Shown here: positions 23,600-43,910 of the stretch, piece after piece
How positions within the stretch are numbered: the first letter of the stretch is position 1
Layout: each line of letters starts with the position of its first letter
Origin: Crocinitomicaceae bacterium
Lineage (GTDB): Bacteria; Bacteroidota; Bacteroidia; Flavobacteriales_D; Crocinitomicaceae
Assembly (NCBI GenBank): GCA_029252405.1
Contig: JAQXBM010000088.1
Coordinates: 1-61,068 of the forward strand
Reading direction: 5' to 3'
DNA length: 61,068 bases
Notes under the pieces: generated by a model
What the model was told of the DNA's origin: nothing
Database searches by the model: none
What the model saw: the letters and a program-made list of their open reading frames with translations, nothing else
Position numbers and translations under genes: made by a program

Positions 23600-24643
23600 T
23601 TACATTCTTCGCTTACGCGTCTTGAACAAGGCGTCATTTCTGTTGATGAATGACAACGAGAATTCCAATGATCCTCCGCGGTAAGCATTTCTCATTGCTG
23701 ATAAAGTTACGTCGTATGAAATTCCGAATTGGAAACCTCTCCAGTCAACCATTACAGAAGGAATAATTCCATCCTTGATTCGAGCGTAGCACCCAAGACC
23801 AATAAAGGCATCATGACTGTTTCCAGTAATCTTTGTCGCGTTTTCAAAACGGTAGCGAACCATCATTCCAAGAAGTGTCTCGTAATGACCTCCCTGCGCA
23901 AATTGAAGAACCGAACCGTCGATTGCAAAAACAGTATTAGGAATATCTGCTACAATTCCTGCGTTCGCCACAAATTTTCTGTGCAAACGATCAGTTGTTA
24001 CTCCGTTCGAGTATTTCAATTCTGGTCTGTTCAAATGATATGCTGCTACTCCAACTTGAATTTTGAAGTTTTCGTTTCTGGCAAATGTGCTTTGTCCTCC
24101 GTCGAATACATAGTAAAGTCCTGCTGAGGCATCCATGTATGCAAATGACGTAACTGTGTTTTGCTCACCACTGATGATGTCTGGATCAAATGCTTCACCG
24201 TTCCATTGATTCATGAAAGAAACATTTGACAAATCTGCTTTGCGCTGTCCGAATCCTCCTTGGACTCCTGCCGACAATACGTGTCCAGATCTGCCCATTG
24301 GAAGAATCCCGCTCAAGGTCAGCGAACCCGTTTGCGATCCAAATCTCGAATCACCACCGATATCGTTGTAGAACATAACTCCTACTCCAACGTGCGCTCG
24401 ATCATTGAAATCTGATTTCGCAATGTTTGCATCCGCCGCGATTGACGTCGTCATAAATTGTGTTCCTGCTCCCAACCACTGATTTCTGTGATTGATGTTT
24501 ACGCGCTCCCAGCCATCGAAAACCCCAGCTGCACCAGGATTAATCAACAAAGGCGTTTGGGCCGTTTGGGAGAAGTGTAAATCTTGTGCGCTCACCGATT
24601 GTAAGGCGAAAAACGCAAGTACTAATGTTAGTGCCTTTTTCAT
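23600..24643 (-). CDS. PorP/SprF-family T9SS outer-membrane protein
   Basis: The 347-residue protein has a signal peptide (cleavage after SVSA, residue 19) and the family start QDLHFSQTAQTPLLINPGAAG, followed by NHRNQW near 51 and amphipathic strands to the end. PorP/SprF barrels in gliding Bacteroidota help type-B sorting-domain cargo reach and stay at the cell surface. The gene starts one base after the stop of the CotH-type protein that carries exactly such a sorting domain, so the pair is almost certainly a cargo and its dedicated anchor. A palindromic terminator follows. Confidence 0.9.
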   Translation of the reverse strand: MKKALTLVLAFFALQSVSAQDLHFSQTAQTPLLINPGAAGVFDGWERVNINHRNQWLGAGTQFMTTSIAADANIAKSDFNDRAHVGVGVMFYNDIGGDSRFGSQTGSLTLSGILPMGRSGHVLSAGVQGGFGQRKADLSNVSFMNQWNGEAFDPDIISGEQNTVTSFAYMDASAGLYYVFDGGQSTFARNENFKIQVGVAAYHLNRPELKYSNGVTTDRLHRKFVANAGIVADIPNTVFAIDGSVLQFAQGGHYETLLGMMVRYRFENATKITGNSHDAFIGLGCYARIKDGIIPSVMVDWRGFQFGISYDVTLSAMRNAYRGGSLEFSLSFINRNDALFKTRKRRM

Positions 24644-24644
24644 C

Positions 24645-27152
24645 TTATCTTATTACAGTGATATTTCCTGAGTGCCACTCGGACGTTCCGTCAGTATAAG
24701 TTACTTCGTACATGTATGGATACACTCCTGAGTTCACAGCCTCACCATTGAATGTTCCGTCCCATGTAAATGCTGGGTCATTTTTCGCATGTACAATTCT
24801 GTTACCCCAACGATCATAAACGTAGAATGTAAATGACTCTACATCTGCTCCAACTAGGATAGAGAACACTTCGTTTTGTCCGTCACCATTTGGACTGAAT
24901 CCTGTTGGTACGTGAACACCGTCGCTTGAAGCTCCTGGAGGAGATCCAACTGCACGGAAGTGAGCAGTAATCGTTTCTGGTCCTGTGATCATGATTCCGT
25001 TTGTGTCTTCAATATCCGGGCTCAACATTGGGCCAGTGGTGTAGGACCAATAATCAAACTCGTAGCCTGTAAAGGGTCGTGCAATGGTATTGGTTTGTAT
25101 CTGACCGTAATAACTAGCTGTCCAAGGTAAATTGTCTTGCCAAATTGAATTCACTTTTATCTCTCCTGCTCCCGGAGGGTCCGAAACAAAGGTGATGTCA
25201 AACGGTCCAGTGAGGTCGTAACAATTCACAAGTCCTGTTTCCATAGCAATACAACGCTCGTCAATGAAGTCGCGCAGTGTTTGAACTGCTCCTTGCCAGT
25301 TGGCGTAAGTTCCACCCCAAGTTGCAATTTGATCTCCCATTTCAGGATCAATCTCGTTGATCATACTATCCAATAGGAAGTTCATGTATTCACATGAGAA
25401 TTCGTTGTTAATTAAATCGATGTAGCGCGTGATGTAGTATTGCTCAACAATTGCTGTATCCGCCATCAATTTCACCAAAATATCTGTGTGCCCTTGACCT
25501 CCTGGGTTTGGCAATCCTTCCACGTTACATGGATCAGCATTTGCCGATGGATCTGGAATTCCTGTGTAATTCACATAGTGACCGAACGATGCGTCCATAT
25601 CCCACAGGATATATCTCCATTTCTTCTTGGTTGCTGTTTGATCCATTCCACGCCACCAAGCTGTGTTCCAGTTCAACCAATCTTGAGAAACGATGTACGA
25701 GTTGAACATGAAGTAATCACACAGTGATCTCCAATTCAAGGTAGAATCTACATACTCGTAGTTTGCTGGAATCGAAATATCGTTAGCAAGGATGTAGGCA
25801 ACTAAGTCATCCCAATCTGTTTGAGCTTGCGCTCCTCCATATTCAGACCATGTTCCTCCCCATGTTTTCAAGAATTGTAAATCAAATTTACCTTGACCGT
25901 AGTAGTAATCCGTGTAATCATGGTCATCTACTTTCTCTCTCATTTCGTAAGCTCCCCAATACTGTCCATTCAAGTACAATACACAGGCTCTTGACGTTCG
26001 TTCGTCCAACTTCATATCAGCATGAATTGACAACATGTGAACAAACGCATCACGAATGTGTGCTCCATCCTCAAACGGATAGTTATCATTTGCAGCAGGC
26101 TTCATGATCAAACGTTGGAAGTCTGTTCTCGATTTTTCTGGGAAAATTTGGTGCTCAATGTCTCCATTGTATCCGAATTGATCACGCATAATAACATCAA
26201 ATCCTCTTTGGTCATATGCCCAAGAATCATTTCCGTGCTTGTTGAAATCTCCTTCACCCTCATCTATGAAGGTTCCGTCCATTTCCCACAATTCGAAAGA
26301 ACCAATTCTGTTTCCTCCCCAACCGTTTCCGTTGGCGATTAAGTCGTAGATTTCATCAGAACAAACCGAAACCACTGGAATCGGATGCGTTACATCAATG
26401 AAATACGTGTTCGTTTCATTAAAACTTGGTTGGTTCGCCCCATCGGCGAAGGCACGAACGACCGTTGTACTCGAAATAGTAATTGGTCCCGCATATACTG
26501 TTGATGAACCGTTTGGTGTTGAACCATCGAGTGTGTAGCGAATCGTCGCTCCCACTTCCGCACAAGTAATTGTCACGGTTTGGGTTCCCGTATAAAAACC
26601 TGGTGCAAGATCCATGACTGGCGTTGGCGTATAAAACGGTTGCGCTCCCATGTTCTGCCCATTAGGCGTCGGTGCTGTGAAAAGTTTCCAATCAGCTGCA
26701 CCATCCGTAGAACGACCAACCGAGTGATCTTCCTTGGTCATGTGGACAATTTTGATTGAATCCACCACGTTACCAAGATCATTCGCTAAAACGATCCATT
26801 CACCTTTCGTTTGAGTCCATGAGAAGCTTGGATGTAATTCTGCGCCAGAAACTTGATCGCGTTTCGACCCAAAAACCATCGTGTATCCACCCGCTGGGAC
26901 AGAAACTCCTGCTGGAACTTGCCATTTTGTAAGGTTTCCTGATTTATCTGAGAGATAATATCCTGAAATGTCGATTGCGCCTCCAGTGGCATTGTAGAGC
27001 TCAACCCAATCCTCTTGCTCTCCAAAAGCATCCGTAGGACCGTTTGAATTAGAGCAAGAATACTCGTTGATTACAATTTGCGAGAGTGCATTTCCTGAGA
27101 GAAACAAGCCTAGAGAGAGAGCTGTTATCTTTATGATTTTCTTTGAAAGCAT
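24645..27152 (-). CDS. CotH-kinase-like T9SS cargo with lamin-tail and type-B sorting domain
   Basis: This 835-residue secreted protein has the following order: signal peptide (1-24), lamin-tail domain (about 25-165; QEDWVELYNATGGAIDISGYYLS), a chitobiase/hexosaminidase C-terminal-like domain (about 195-250; GATIRYTLDGSTP), a CotH-kinase-like domain (about 255-600; LYLNGQYWGAYEMREKVDDHD, LWDMDASFGHY), and a gliding-motility-type B sorting domain (about 745-835; PTGFSPNGDGQNEVF, YDRWGNRI). CotH proteins can phosphorylate proteins on the surface, and the lamin-tail/CotH pairing is common in Bacteroidota. It lies in one unit with the PorP/SprF gene. Confidence 0.9.
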   Translation of the reverse strand: MLSKKIIKITALSLGLFLSGNALSQIVINEYSCSNSNGPTDAFGEQEDWVELYNATGGAIDISGYYLSDKSGNLTKWQVPAGVSVPAGGYTMVFGSKRDQVSGAELHPSFSWTQTKGEWIVLANDLGNVVDSIKIVHMTKEDHSVGRSTDGAADWKLFTAPTPNGQNMGAQPFYTPTPVMDLAPGFYTGTQTVTITCAEVGATIRYTLDGSTPNGSSTVYAGPITISSTTVVRAFADGANQPSFNETNTYFIDVTHPIPVVSVCSDEIYDLIANGNGWGGNRIGSFELWEMDGTFIDEGEGDFNKHGNDSWAYDQRGFDVIMRDQFGYNGDIEHQIFPEKSRTDFQRLIMKPAANDNYPFEDGAHIRDAFVHMLSIHADMKLDERTSRACVLYLNGQYWGAYEMREKVDDHDYTDYYYGQGKFDLQFLKTWGGTWSEYGGAQAQTDWDDLVAYILANDISIPANYEYVDSTLNWRSLCDYFMFNSYIVSQDWLNWNTAWWRGMDQTATKKKWRYILWDMDASFGHYVNYTGIPDPSANADPCNVEGLPNPGGQGHTDILVKLMADTAIVEQYYITRYIDLINNEFSCEYMNFLLDSMINEIDPEMGDQIATWGGTYANWQGAVQTLRDFIDERCIAMETGLVNCYDLTGPFDITFVSDPPGAGEIKVNSIWQDNLPWTASYYGQIQTNTIARPFTGYEFDYWSYTTGPMLSPDIEDTNGIMITGPETITAHFRAVGSPPGASSDGVHVPTGFSPNGDGQNEVFSILVGADVESFTFYVYDRWGNRIVHAKNDPAFTWDGTFNGEAVNSGVYPYMYEVTYTDGTSEWHSGNITVIR

Positions 27153-40539: not shown

Positions 40540-41829
40540 ATGAAAAAAGTATACATGTTTGTTTCGTTGTTCATGGCTTCCTTTGGAAGTATGGCAGCAA
40601 CTGCAGAAGCAACTACAATTATTGAAAACGTGGAGATGGACGCCGTTTCTGTATCAATTACAGTAACGAGCGATGGAAAACCTGTTTCGGGAGCTCTCGT
40701 GAAAATCGTGAATGGAAAAACAGTTGTTGCTGCGGGAACAACGAACGAATCAGGAGTTGCTGCAATCAAATTGCCAACTTACAACGGTGAAGGTGTCACA
40801 ATCGAAGTGTATCACCGTCTATATAAAACAATGAAGAAACAGTCTGTCGTCCTATCAGATGGTGGTAATGTTCCTTTTGCGCTAAGAAGTAAATCTTCTG
40901 CTATCTCTGAAGTTGAAGCGGAAGCTCAAGCAAAAGAAGAGAAACTCAACGAGAAGATTCAAGGAAAAGAAGAATCGAAAGCGGAGTACGAAAAACGCAT
41001 GGCTGAAGCGAAAGAGCGTCAGGAAAAACTTCAACAAGAAACGGCTGAAGTTAAGACGGAGACGGAAGAGCGTGTGAAAGAAACGGAAGAAGCGCGAAAA
41101 GAGATTGAGGCGAAGGAGAAAGAAATGGAAGCTAAACGTCAAGAAATCGAAAAGATGAAGACGGAGAAGGAAGCGCAACTGAGTGAAGGTGCTGCTGATC
41201 GCGAAGCTGAAATGAGAAAGCGCAAGGAAGAGCAAGAAGCACGCATGAAAGCCATCGAAGAAGAGAAGGCGAAGAAAATGGAAGAGGTGGATGCCTCAGC
41301 AGCGGAACGCGAAGCGGCGAAAGCTCAAAAAGCCCAAAAAGAGGCGGCAAAAGATGCTGAGCAAGCAGCAAAAGACAAGGAAAAAGCCTTGAAAGAAGAA
41401 AAAGAGCGCGCTGAAGATGATTCAAAGGCTGCAAAAGAGAGCGTAAAGGCAGAAGAGAAAGCTGAAAAGGCTGAAAAGGAAGCCATGAAAGAGGCGGAAA
41501 AAACGCAGAAAGAAGCCGAAAAAGCACAGAAAGAGGCAGAAAAGGCTCAAAAAGAAGCGGAAAAAGAAGCAAAAGAGCTTCAAAAAGAAGCGAAGAAAGC
41601 CGAAGCTCTTCAGGGTAAAATTGATAAGTTGGACTCAGACCAAAAAGGCATCGACGAGGCTCGAAAGAAATTGGACGACAAGCAGAAGAAACTAGATAAG
41701 AAAATAGCAAAAGGTAAAAAGTTGGACAAGCTTGAAACTGAACAACAGAAGTTGGAGGTTGAACATTCAAAATTGGATGAAAAGCAAAACAAACTAGACT
41801 CTAAGCGTAAAAAATTGATGAAAAAATAA
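40540..41829 (+). CDS. Secreted Ig-like protein with a long charged coiled coil
   Basis: The product has 429 residues. A signal peptide (1-20) is followed by one Cna-B/Ig-like domain (about 34-117; VTSDGKPVSGALVKIVNGKTVVAAGTTNESG). From about 118 to the end the chain is an almost uninterrupted helix rich in Lys, Glu and Ala, with repeats such as EKAQKEAEK between about 315 and 345 and DEKQNKLDSKRKK near the end. That composition suits a coiled coil or a single alpha helix some tens of nanometres long, spanning or stiffening the periplasm. It resembles TolA-like or Pal-less linkers in composition only. A C-UUCG-G hairpin terminates the gene. Confidence 0.8.
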   Translation: MKKVYMFVSLFMASFGSMAATAEATTIIENVEMDAVSVSITVTSDGKPVSGALVKIVNGKTVVAAGTTNESGVAAIKLPTYNGEGVTIEVYHRLYKTMKKQSVVLSDGGNVPFALRSKSSAISEVEAEAQAKEEKLNEKIQGKEESKAEYEKRMAEAKERQEKLQQETAEVKTETEERVKETEEARKEIEAKEKEMEAKRQEIEKMKTEKEAQLSEGAADREAEMRKRKEEQEARMKAIEEEKAKKMEEVDASAAEREAAKAQKAQKEAAKDAEQAAKDKEKALKEEKERAEDDSKAAKESVKAEEKAEKAEKEAMKEAEKTQKEAEKAQKEAEKAQKEAEKEAKELQKEAKKAEALQGKIDKLDSDQKGIDEARKKLDDKQKKLDKKIAKGKKLDKLETEQQKLEVEHSKLDEKQNKLDSKRKKLMKK

Positions 41830-41850: not shown

Positions 41851-41886
41851 AACTCCCTTGAGCTTCGGTTTGAGGGAGTTTTTTTA
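41851..41886 (+). terminator. Intrinsic terminator with a UUCG tetraloop
   Basis: A 13-bp stem starting AACTCCCTTGAGC (four G-T pairs) is closed by C-UUCG-G and followed by seven Ts. Confidence 0.9.
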
Positions 41887-41919: not shown

Positions 41920-41982
41920 CCGAGAATGTCACTTTTTCGCGTTTCAATCTACTTACATATCAACTAACGAGTTTCAACCTCA

Positions 41983-42498
41983 ATGAGTCAATCAAAACAG
42001 GATATATTTCTTGAACTTTACGAACCTATTCATGATAAGTTCGAGCGCTTCTGCAGGGCGCGTGTGTATGGAAATATGGAGCATGGAGACTTGATCAATG
42101 AGACGCTTCTAGTTGCATTTGAAAAACTGGATACTTTAAAATCGAAAGACGCATTCCTTGGGTTTCTATTTGGAATTAGTGTTAAAATTCTCTCTAACAA
42201 TCATAAAAAGCTAACCGAGAGGCACCTTAACCCTGAAGACAAAAGTTCTTACAAAGCGCCTTCTGAAAACAATACGGAACTAGACGCTGAGATACATTTT
42301 TTGTACAAAGCTCTTTCTGAGTTATCGGAAGATCAGCGCGAATGTTTGATCTTATTTGAAATCACTGGATTTAAAATTAAAGAAATAGCCAACATTCAAA
42401 ACGCAAGTGAAGATGCCGTTAAGCAGCGGTTGAAACGAGGAAGAAAACGTTTGTCTGAAATCATGACATTCGAATCAGAATTAAAAACTGGAAGGTAA
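41983..42498 (+). CDS. ECF RNA polymerase sigma factor
   Basis: This 171-residue protein has sigma region 2 at about 8-75 (DLINETLLVAFEKLDTLKSKDAFLGFLFGISV) and region 4 at about 105-165 (LSELSEDQRECLILFEITGFKIKEIANIQNASEDAVKQRLKRGRKRLSE, a clear helix-turn-helix). No region 3 and no signal are present, as expected of the ECF group. It would direct RNA polymerase to a dedicated regulon. The next gene starts two bases later and encodes a membrane protein of anti-sigma layout, so the pair probably works as one sensor-switch. Confidence 0.88.
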   Translation: MSQSKQDIFLELYEPIHDKFERFCRARVYGNMEHGDLINETLLVAFEKLDTLKSKDAFLGFLFGISVKILSNNHKKLTERHLNPEDKSSYKAPSENNTELDAEIHFLYKALSELSEDQRECLILFEITGFKIKEIANIQNASEDAVKQRLKRGRKRLSEIMTFESELKTGR

Positions 42499-42500
42499 TT

Positions 42501-43910
42501 ATGGACAACCAACAAAACATAGATGCACTTTTTGCGAAGGCCAAGTTGACTCCAACGGCAATTCCTTTCAATGAATCAAAGGACCTTTTCATTAAAAATG
42601 TGCCGGGCGGAAGCTCAGCATCAAAAGGAAAAGGTCGATTTTTTAACTTGATAAACCTTCTAATTATGATTGGTATACTAGGGACATTGTCCTTTTTTAT
42701 AGTCTTTTCTGTTTCAACGGCAGGAAAAGAAACCTCAGGTGTAACACTTCAATACACGGAAAAACAAGGCCAAGTTACCAAAGCCGACGATGCAACTACA
42801 AACGAACCGCTTCAAACGGAGACAATCACCTCAGGAGCAACCGAAAATAAAAGAGTCTCTTGGGCTGATTTAATCAAAACTATCCCCCCAAGGGAGATCT
42901 ACTTAAAAAGAGTGTTGACATTACATGATAGAAGATACACCAAACCACTTCTTCAGGAACCCTCTTTGCAATATCCTGATCACACCCCATTTCCAAAATT
43001 GACGGATGCTGAAATCGCTGCCAATCACAGGCAAAAAAGAAAAATGGTCAAAGCTTTATCCAAGTTTGATCGAAAAAAATATTCCTATATCCCCTCGGGG
43101 TCATACTTATACAAGGGGGATACCGTTTCGGTTCAGTCATTTTTTATGCGGCGCGAAGAGGTGACAAACCTGGAGTATCGAACCTTCCTTTTTGACCTGC
43201 TTATTCAAGACAGAAAGAATGACTTTCTCAATGTTGCGCCGGATCAAACACTATGGACAACAGCTCTGGACGATTCGTTAATCAGCTTTCAAAAGGACTA
43301 TTTCTCAAATGTCCTTTACAACGGTCACCCTGTTGTGAATGTCTCGGAAAAAGGAGTGCAAATGTATTGCGATTGGTTAACAATTGAGACTAATAAGCTT
43401 CGAGATGATGACCCTATCAATGATGTAAGAATTCCTCAGTTATTTGAATGGACATACGCCGCTTCCAACTTAGGAAAACAAACAACTTATCCATGGGAAG
43501 GAAAATCGCTCACTACAAATGACGTCTTTAACGCCAACTTCAAACTAGACCAATACAAAGGTAGTTTAGATCAAATCAAGCCGAAAACCAAGAAAAAGAG
43601 GCATAAGGTGGCGCGAACAACTTTTGAACATACGGTAGGATTGATGATCGCCTGGACAAAAACCTATGAACCAAATGAGCTTGGGCTATACAACATGAGT
43701 GGAAATGTTGCCGAAATGGTGTCAACAACTACAGTCCCAAATTCATTTCAAATTGCAAAACCCAATGAAAAACAGCTAGTAACATGCGGTGGCAGCTGGA
43801 TGAGTTCTCCCGAAGACTTGAAAGTTTTTAATGAAAGCTTGACCGATTACATCGATGGGCACCCTTCTGTTGGTTTCAGAGTAGTTGTTACATATTTCAG
43901 CCAAAACTAG
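42501..43910 (+). CDS. Membrane-anchored SUMF1-domain protein, probable anti-sigma partner
   Basis: The product has 469 residues: a short cytoplasmic head (1-46), one transmembrane helix (about 48-71), a Ser/Thr-rich linker (72-115), a connector with basic helices (115-190), then a SUMF1/formylglycine-enzyme-like domain to the end (SYIPSGSYLYKGDTVSVQSFFMRREEVTNLEY near 194-225, NMSGNVAEMV near 400, CGGSWM near 427, GFRVVV at the end). The catalytic cysteines of formylglycine enzymes are absent between GGSW and GFR, as in GldJ/GldK, so it should bind rather than modify. Position, topology and the sigma gene two bases upstream suggest an anti-sigma factor with a SUMF1 sensor. Confidence 0.8.
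   Translation: MDNQQNIDALFAKAKLTPTAIPFNESKDLFIKNVPGGSSASKGKGRFFNLINLLIMIGILGTLSFFIVFSVSTAGKETSGVTLQYTEKQGQVTKADDATTNEPLQTETITSGATENKRVSWADLIKTIPPREIYLKRVLTLHDRRYTKPLLQEPSLQYPDHTPFPKLTDAEIAANHRQKRKMVKALSKFDRKKYSYIPSGSYLYKGDTVSVQSFFMRREEVTNLEYRTFLFDLLIQDRKNDFLNVAPDQTLWTTALDDSLISFQKDYFSNVLYNGHPVVNVSEKGVQMYCDWLTIETNKLRDDDPINDVRIPQLFEWTYAASNLGKQTTYPWEGKSLTTNDVFNANFKLDQYKGSLDQIKPKTKKKRHKVARTTFEHTVGLMIAWTKTYEPNELGLYNMSGNVAEMVSTTTVPNSFQIAKPNEKQLVTCGGSWMSSPEDLKVFNESLTDYIDGHPSVGFRVVVTYFSQN

Follow-up and report, generated by a model that had tools for sequence, protein, structure and literature searches.

A conserved ECF sigma factor gene paired with a candidate membrane-spanning anti-sigma factor that carries a GldK-related SUMF1 domain

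Introduction

What is the role of a membrane-anchored protein with a SUMF1 domain which is encoded directly downstream of an extracytoplasmic function (ECF) sigma factor gene? This question is raised by a locus on contig JAQXBM010000088.1 (assembly GCA_029252405.1) of a Crocinitomicaceae bacterium, of which positions 1 to 61,068 were analysed and are referred to as the window. An original prediction, made from the DNA letters and their open reading frames (ORFs), had regarded the two genes as a possible signalling pair. Our analysis points to a conserved pair of an ECF sigma factor and a transmembrane partner with an inhibitory head, to which we assign a probability of roughly 0.72, a figure that excludes the nature of the signal. 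That the two proteins function as sigma and anti-sigma factor we consider highly probable. The reading which seems best to us is that of an anti-sigma factor whose head is very short and CnrY-like and whose periplasmic domain, related to GldK, would serve as the sensor.

Results

The operon and its sigma factor

The two genes are the following:

41983..42498, plus strand: ECF-type sigma factor gene, 171 residues (Pfam and NCBIfam matches; kept together with its partner in relatives)
42501..43910, plus strand: candidate membrane-spanning anti-sigma factor gene, 469 residues (FGE-sulfatase match, AlphaFold2 model, gene order)

As predicted, the sigma ORF is followed by that of the partner after a gap of two bases, and both ORFs were retrieved where they had been placed. 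The product of the first gene matches the Pfam families Sigma70_r4_2 (5.9e-14) and Sigma70_ECF (9.7e-06) as well as the NCBIfam model TIGR02937 (6.5e-17), all of them above cut-off, while the Pfam match to sigma region 2 stays under its own cut-off (15.8 vs 24 bits). Having regions 2 and 4 within 171 residues, it belongs to the ECF sigma factors, which comprise about 170 to 200 residues.

Conservation of the sigma-partner pair

One genome from each of 84,980 species was scanned, and 80 of 99 relatives of the partner were retained. A close sigma gene is present directly upstream at 25 of these 80 loci. Many of the remaining 55 encode short secreted SUMF1 proteins without head, three begin at a contig end, and a divergent sigma-like gene overlaps the start of another five. 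In a sample of 200 genomes of the family the partner is matched at 1e-10 or better in 113, head-less paralogues being counted; the species scan and these genomes together provided 57 pairs with distinct sigma factors. Searched for regardless of the partner, the sigma factor is found in 74 of the 200 family genomes, and 40 further regions, a subset of all such matches, were fetched. This amounts to 98 distinct sigma rows, 93 with a separate partner and five in which both are fused.

A partner ORF had to comprise at least 60 residues, and its start was sought from -40 to +80 nucleotides relative to the sigma stop codon. In all 93 unfused rows it begins between -38 and +11, overlapping the sigma gene in 82, and thus occupies the position of an anti-sigma gene directly downstream of the sigma gene. 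A candidate membrane helix is present in 92 of these 93 ORFs, three of which are shorter than 200 residues, being cut or broken. Chance adjacency of the two genes was rejected in view of this pairing. The original prediction, which had recognised the layout of a sigma/anti-sigma operon, was to be given up if the two genes were not neighbours in relatives; the search for the pair which it had proposed finds them adjoining in relatives, and the layout is borne out by gene order. The carriers of the pair include the cultivable relative Brumimicrobium mesophilum (locus L023).

At a threshold of 1e-30 a phylum-wide sample of 395 genomes contains the SUMF1 partner in a single one, namely the window's own; the sigma clade, sought at 1e-20 in 299 genomes from the order, turned up in 57. 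Among 16 regions examined outside the family, SUMF1-type partners occur in two genomes of one other family: L292, which reaches 153.1 bits on the GldK model, and L293, whose sigma factor is the same as that of L026. Beyond the pair itself no gene family, as judged by eye, is common to more than nine of 41 neighbourhoods, some of which are copies (the sigma factors of L026/L293 and of L027/L122 are identical). The possibility that the pair is part of a larger conserved cluster was rejected on this basis.

Architecture of the partner and its head

The partner (all coordinates on the plus strand) is divided as follows:

42501..42641: cytoplasmic head, residues 1-47, candidate minimal anti-sigma domain (AlphaFold2 helices, conservation)
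42642..42713: transmembrane helix, residues 48-71 (AlphaFold2 helix; 92 of 93 partners show a hydropathy peak)
42714..42992: periplasmic tether, residues 72-164, largely disordered, its end being conserved (predicted local distance difference test (pLDDT), identity profile)
42993..43907: GldK-like periplasmic domain of SUMF1/formylglycine-generating enzyme (FGE) fold, residues 165-469 (Foldseek, tree, alignment columns)

The AlphaFold2 model, built with 57 sequences, has an overall mean pLDDT of 75.1 and a predicted TM-score (pTM) of 0.66. The head is modelled as two short helices, residues 2-16 and 23-33, with a block pLDDT of about 70. Values below 50 are obtained for residues 37-47 and 71-155, leaving about 85 disordered residues between the membrane helix and the SUMF1 fold. 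The latter begins at approximately residue 161 and shows block means of 81 to 98 apart from two weakly predicted stretches (361-380, pLDDT 53 and 47; 411-430, pLDDT 50 and 73). The short head, the single membrane helix and the periplasmic SUMF1 domain which had been proposed are confirmed by this model together with the FGE-sulfatase match (see below), and the protein has the topology of a transmembrane anti-sigma factor, with an N-terminal head, one membrane helix and a periplasmic domain.

Mean pairwise identity amounts to 41% for head residues 6-33 and to 51% for residues 160-190, while it is 13% for residues 34-47 and 11% for residues 75-155 of the tether. Phe11 is invariant in the 57 proteins, and Leu10, Phe23 and Phe30 are kept in at least 90%. 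The pattern [LI]xx[hydrophobic]F is present in 87 of 93 heads, while in the other six the first residue is Met or Tyr. With its 47 residues the head is not a class I anti-sigma domain, i.e. a profile-recognised domain of about 100 residues.

One module with several periplasmic domains

The window's own genome has a single further sigma factor of the clade, encoded on contig C99 (61% identity; the next match has an E-value of 1e-9). The partner in this sister operon bears the same kind of head, and its remaining domain lacks any Pfam match at 0.1. A Pfam scan of 43 proteins, namely the window protein, 37 others and the five fusions, assigned DUF2807 to 15, CHU_C to two, DUF4097 to two, FGE-sulfatase to two (one of them the window's) and WG repeats to one. 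Since the sigma-plus-head module is combined with DUF2807, CHU_C, DUF4097 or unnamed domains, SUMF1 appears to be one of several sensors. CHU_C, a signal domain of the type IX secretion system (T9SS), is matched in L173 with 1.6e-16, where it is observed behind the membrane helix; we presume that its near-copy L177 is the second carrier. The ORFs in question (L173, 2067-3542; L177, 1207-2682) encode candidate anti-sigma factors with an internal CHU_C domain.

In five of the 98 rows (L163, L164, L165, L166 and L167; five loci from two genera) sigma factor and head are joined in one ORF of 541 to 799 residues. The heads of these proteins align with the free heads and a candidate membrane helix is present in four, making them candidates for membrane-tethered sigma factors. 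A Pfam match to T9SS_plug in one of them is under cut-off and was not used. A second, divergent set of loci (L020, L029, L037, L039, L043 and L128) contains sigma-like genes and membrane-bound SUMF1 proteins whose longer heads differ from those of the window-type pairs; sigma region 2 was found by Pfam in four of the five sigma-like proteins scanned, in two of them above cut-off. In some relatives a second SUMF1 domain follows in tandem.

A promoter-like element upstream of the pair

The sigma gene is preceded by an element of fixed spacing:

41927..41956, plus strand: 30-nucleotide element TGTCACTT-N16-ACTTAC, candidate autoregulated ECF promoter (exact pattern hits)

It ends 26 nucleotides ahead of the sigma start codon and conforms to the consensus TGT(A/C)ACTT-N16-ACTTAC. 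An exact search, which included two further semi-fixed positions, gave 36 matches in 34 of the 200 family genomes (seven for the reversed pattern as control), and all 36 are located 6 to 41 nucleotides upstream of a match to the sigma clade. A relaxed pattern matches 48 of 57 SUMF1-type operons, 15 of the 36 remaining ones and none of the five fusions. This distribution suggests that the element is an autoregulated ECF promoter. In the window's own genome the sites that make sense are those of the window operon and of the C99 sister operon, the latter differing by one mismatch. A broad regulon was dismissed: with at most one mismatch this genome contains 11 sites, compared with 23 for the reversed control. 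The original prediction, which was right about the operon layout, had missed both this element and the varying sister domains.

Three further elements of the own genome, TGTAACTT-N16-TCTTAC, were noted ahead of a different ECF sigma gene (L142, contig C98) and of two secreted proteins (L136, contig C21; L138, contig C38). They look like promoters of another sigma factor and possibly constitute a small regulon.

Kinship of the SUMF1 domain to GldK/PorK

The partner matches Pfam FGE-sulfatase with 9.4e-26 (91.4 bits, cut-off 23.3) and the NCBIfam model GldK with 5.7e-33 (114.8 bits, cut-off 350). Its SUMF1/FGE fold is established by the Pfam profile and by Foldseek. Since the GldK score lies under the cut-off, it signifies resemblance and does not assign the protein to the GldK/PorK equivalogs. 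In the Foldseek search the four best PDB E-values (5.8e-16 to 5.6e-14) belong to PorK of the T9SS PorKN ring, followed by FGE enzymes with 1.3e-12. The proposed likeness to GldK-type proteins therefore holds in so far as PorK/GldK are the best-scoring named relatives according to NCBIfam and Foldseek E-value. All 57 anti-sigma SUMF1 proteins match the GldK model at E-values up to 0.001.

The absence of catalytic cysteines had been predicted correctly. At the two columns GGSW+2 and GGSW+7, which we take to be the positions of the FGE catalytic cysteines, the window protein has Ser435 and Leu440, and cysteine occurs in one and in none of 57 relatives, respectively. Lacking both active-site cysteines, the domain does not belong to the active formylglycine-generating enzymes. 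That it acts as an enzyme was considered and appears unlikely, as these columns are occupied by Ser and Leu.

A quickly built tree of 168 SUMF1 domains, rooted at the midpoint and including one GldJ but no enzymes from outside, contains a branch of support 98. Of the 101 rows on one side of it, 56 are first domains of anti-sigma factors and 30 are GldK; the rest are seven proteins of the second set, seven unpaired or cut proteins and one second domain. GldK forms one clade on a long branch, and its branching order relative to the anti-sigma domains is ambiguous. The single GldJ and seven of eight tandem second domains are placed on the opposite side (support 94 with GldJ), and most unpaired SUMF1 proteins (59 of 66) also fall outside the GldK side. 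We regard the periplasmic domain as GldK-related, by which we do not claim descent from GldK.

Two secreted GldK-like SUMF1 paralogues, of about 300 residues and lacking a membrane head, deserve mention. One is encoded on contig C94 of the own genome (L147, 8987-9886) and keeps the GldK cysteine described below. The other (L007, 4068-4973) is located about 1 kb from a sigma pair on the opposite strand.

PorK possesses a ring-forming insertion, InsH, and a docking hub, according to the accessible part of PMC12421860, on which, together with the alignment, our delimitation of InsH is based. This interval comprises 183 to 194 residues in 30 of 30 GldK proteins versus 16 in 56 of 56 anti-sigma domains, so that the ring-forming insertion is missing in all of the latter. 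PorK R328, F334 and E342, named in the same source, do not agree with the letters which the chain numbering has at these positions, and no claim is built on them. A cysteine of GldK/PorK, disulfide-bonded to SprF/PorG as far as the accessible text of PMC12635249 goes, corresponds to the following codon:

43524..43526, plus strand: codon of Val342, in the column of PorK Cys356 / GldK Cys343 (alignment column)

This column holds cysteine in 30 of 30 GldK, in 27 of the 56 first domains of anti-sigma factors, in six of seven proteins of the second set, in 18 of 66 unpaired proteins and in one of eight second domains; the single GldJ does not have it.

Surroundings of the operon and T9SS genes

The T9SS machinery had been described as dense in the window, which proved overstated. 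Ten of its 47 ORFs of at least 150 residues were scanned; a T9SS tail of type A is carried by five of them and one of type B by another, and one more is a PorP/SprF-family protein above its cut-off. No model of ring, motor or translocon exceeded its cut-off in these ten ORFs, PorW/SprE reaching 84.7 of 250 bits. GldK and GldJ, both above cut-off, are encoded on other contigs of the same genome. On the minus strand of the window (23603-27152) the PorP/SprF-family protein adjoins a T9SS type B cargo protein.

Upstream, the sigma operon is separated from the preceding gene by a further feature:

41851..41880, plus strand: terminator-like hairpin with a 13-pair stem followed by a T run (consensus match; putative function)

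The gene beyond it (40540-41829) encodes a protein which looks secreted; its N-terminus resembles CarboxypepD_reg (below cut-off), and its long tail is charged and coiled-coil-like.

Discussion

If the pair operates as we suppose, the head would keep the sigma factor at the membrane in an inactive state, in the manner of the two CnrY helices, and the periplasmic domain would be the sensor: a change in its state or in its partner would make the head let go or be cut free, upon which the released sigma factor would transcribe its own operon plus further targets. The likeliest single class of signal would be something that docks on the GldK-like hub, e.g. GldN or, from the outer membrane, a client of the gliding/T9SS track.

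Several results weigh against an inhibitory head. Its sequence could not be related to any known anti-sigma domain, that of CnrY among them; neither in the window protein nor in 33 heads was an anti-sigma family of Pfam detected, and comparison of the head with PDB sequences gave three matches at E-values up to 10, none of them an anti-sigma or CnrY chain. An AlphaFold2 model of sigma factor and head as one chain has a pTM of 0.50 with a poorly modelled sigma4 and yields no readable arrangement. Its alignment contained 54 rows picked for correct placement (a read-through, the five fusions, five of the 93 sigma rows and 43 head rows), and the resulting sigma depth of 11 sequences may explain the poor sigma4. 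Foldseek returned weak matches for this model, none at 0.001 or better, and co-variation between sigma factor and head (93 pairs, effective number 58) does not exceed that of within-cluster shuffles. The confidence of the second head helix is about 74 in the partner model and 87 in the model with sigma factor, values that stem from different proteins and alignments and are not counted as evidence of a contact.

That the partner reads a T9SS or gliding signal is possible, though we would rather bet against it. For it we count the kinship of the sensor, the cysteine in 27 of 56 domains, the tandem domains grouping with GldJ, CHU_C in two sisters and the fact that T9SS genes have been tied to ECF control before (accessible parts of PMC7712824 and PMC9723704); GldJ and GldK have been modelled side by side in the gliding track, as stated in the available text of PMC12635249. 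A number of points are adverse. The secreted paralogue of the own genome matches GldK at 153.7 bits vs 114.8 for the window protein, which made us lower our estimate slightly. As to the relationship of the sensor to GldK, target-normalised TM-scores reach 0.66 for FGE enzymes and 0.47 to 0.50 for PorK, the two GldJ models are likewise matched by all 57 proteins, and in L010 the second domain obtains a slightly higher score from GldK (138 bits) than from GldJ (125.1 bits). As to the T9SS signal, the window protein itself has Val342 in place of the client cysteine. DUF2807 is the commonest named sister domain, no target promoter was found beyond the operons of the sigma clade, and outside the pair no gene family recurs in more than nine of the 41 neighbourhoods. 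GldK is present in 57 of 60 family genomes, which renders co-occurrence uninformative.

A more specific and rather unlikely variant, which we have likewise downgraded somewhat because of the stronger GldK match of the secreted paralogue, would make the domain a decoy subunit: having a docking hub and no ring insertion, and being tethered to the inner membrane, it would sample free GldN or the clients SprF/PorG and report assembly or load of the track to the sigma factor. In about half of the relatives the GldK cysteine could be the means of sampling SprF/PorG, and a second SUMF1 domain, perhaps akin to GldJ, or CHU_C may serve the sisters for the same purpose.

The serious competitor, for which the chances are only a little short of even, retains the sigma/anti-sigma pair and lets the SUMF1 domain sense a small molecule, a glycan or an envelope protein in the former substrate groove, its GldK likeness reflecting the shared ancestry of the Bacteroidota SUMF1 family. 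Sister proteins that carry DUF2807, DUF4097 or no named domain on the same module fit this explanation, as do the frequent head-less secreted paralogues, of which that of the own genome surpasses the window protein on the GldK model, the lack of a further gene common to more than nine of 41 neighbourhoods and the presence of 2y3c, an FGE-fold protein which we take to be ligand-binding, among the Foldseek matches. It accounts less well for the position of the anti-sigma first domains on the GldK side of the tree, where 59 of 66 unpaired ones are not found, and for the more frequent client cysteine (27 of 56 vs 18 of 66).

It is improbable that the partner activates the sigma factor. FecR-type regulators have pro-sigma activity, and by analogy the head would be needed for an active sigma factor upon a periplasmic signal; topology and gene order are compatible with either sign of control, and five sister proteins contain sigma factor and head in a single polypeptide. 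Neither Pfam nor NCBIfam, however, detects a FecR-type domain in the window protein, and a further gene such as a receptor is not common to more than nine of the 41 neighbourhoods. Least credible by far is that the genes merely adjoin and the SUMF1 protein is an accessory part of T9SS or gliding machinery anchored in the inner membrane. While its GldK likeness would suit such a part, the tight pairing in 93 rows, the same head on other periplasmic domains, the sigma-head fusions and the missing ring-forming insertion all contradict it.

Should the preferred sigma/anti-sigma pair with its GldK-like domain indeed read the gliding/T9SS track, transcription would be linked directly to a machine of secretion and motility, and a role as sensor would be added to the SUMF1 fold. 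The varied periplasmic domains on one module make the signals accessible to domain swaps. In the full-text literature no paper joining SUMF1, sulfatase-modifying factor or GldK with sigma or anti-sigma factors was found, a search that did not cover the large ECF re-classification.

Comparison with known systems

Class I anti-sigma factors of ECF sigma factors such as RseA, RsiW and ChrR are encoded in one operon with their sigma factor and combine a membrane anchor with an extracytoplasmic sensor. The window pair shares this operon layout, the anchor and the extracytoplasmic domain, and it differs by its head of 47 residues without class I Pfam match. According to the accessible part of PMC7406223, class I anti-sigma domains have a mean length of 101 residues and occur with just 6% of the ECF sigma factors of Bacteroidetes, a figure that leaves open how most of these are controlled. 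As it matched no Pfam model, the two-helix head could be one of the missing anti-sigma classes.

GldK/PorK and the periplasmic domain have in common the best NCBIfam model and fold E-value, the absence of the FGE cysteines and, in about half of the anti-sigma domains, the track cysteine. In contrast to them, the window protein is not a lipoprotein but has a membrane head, has 16 residues where they have 183 to 194, and remains under the GldK cut-off.

ECF control is tied to T9SS genes also in SigP-PorXY and at the Flavobacterium psychrophilum SM6 promoters, as far as the available descriptions go, and sigP of Porphyromonas gingivalis is auto-regulated according to the accessible parts of PMC7712824 and PMC9723704. 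Unlike the window pair, SigP is influenced by a two-component system and, in the same parts of these sources, no SUMF1 anti-sigma factor is described for SigP-PorXY; the SM6 promoters have a CGT -10 box, as given in the available text, versus ACTTAC in the window element.

The closest parallel for the head is offered by the system CnrH-CnrY of Cupriavidus metallidurans, with an anti-sigma domain of class II, a class characterised by two helices around sigma2 and sigma4. The accessible parts of PMC7406223 and PMC4598750 describe the cytoplasmic part of CnrY as two helices which embrace the sigma factor CnrH. Although the window head shows no sequence relation to CnrY, is joined to another periplasmic domain, and would contact its sigma factor in a manner that the model of pTM 0.50 does not reveal, it is likewise predicted to consist of two helices, 2-16 and 23-33, ahead of the membrane helix.

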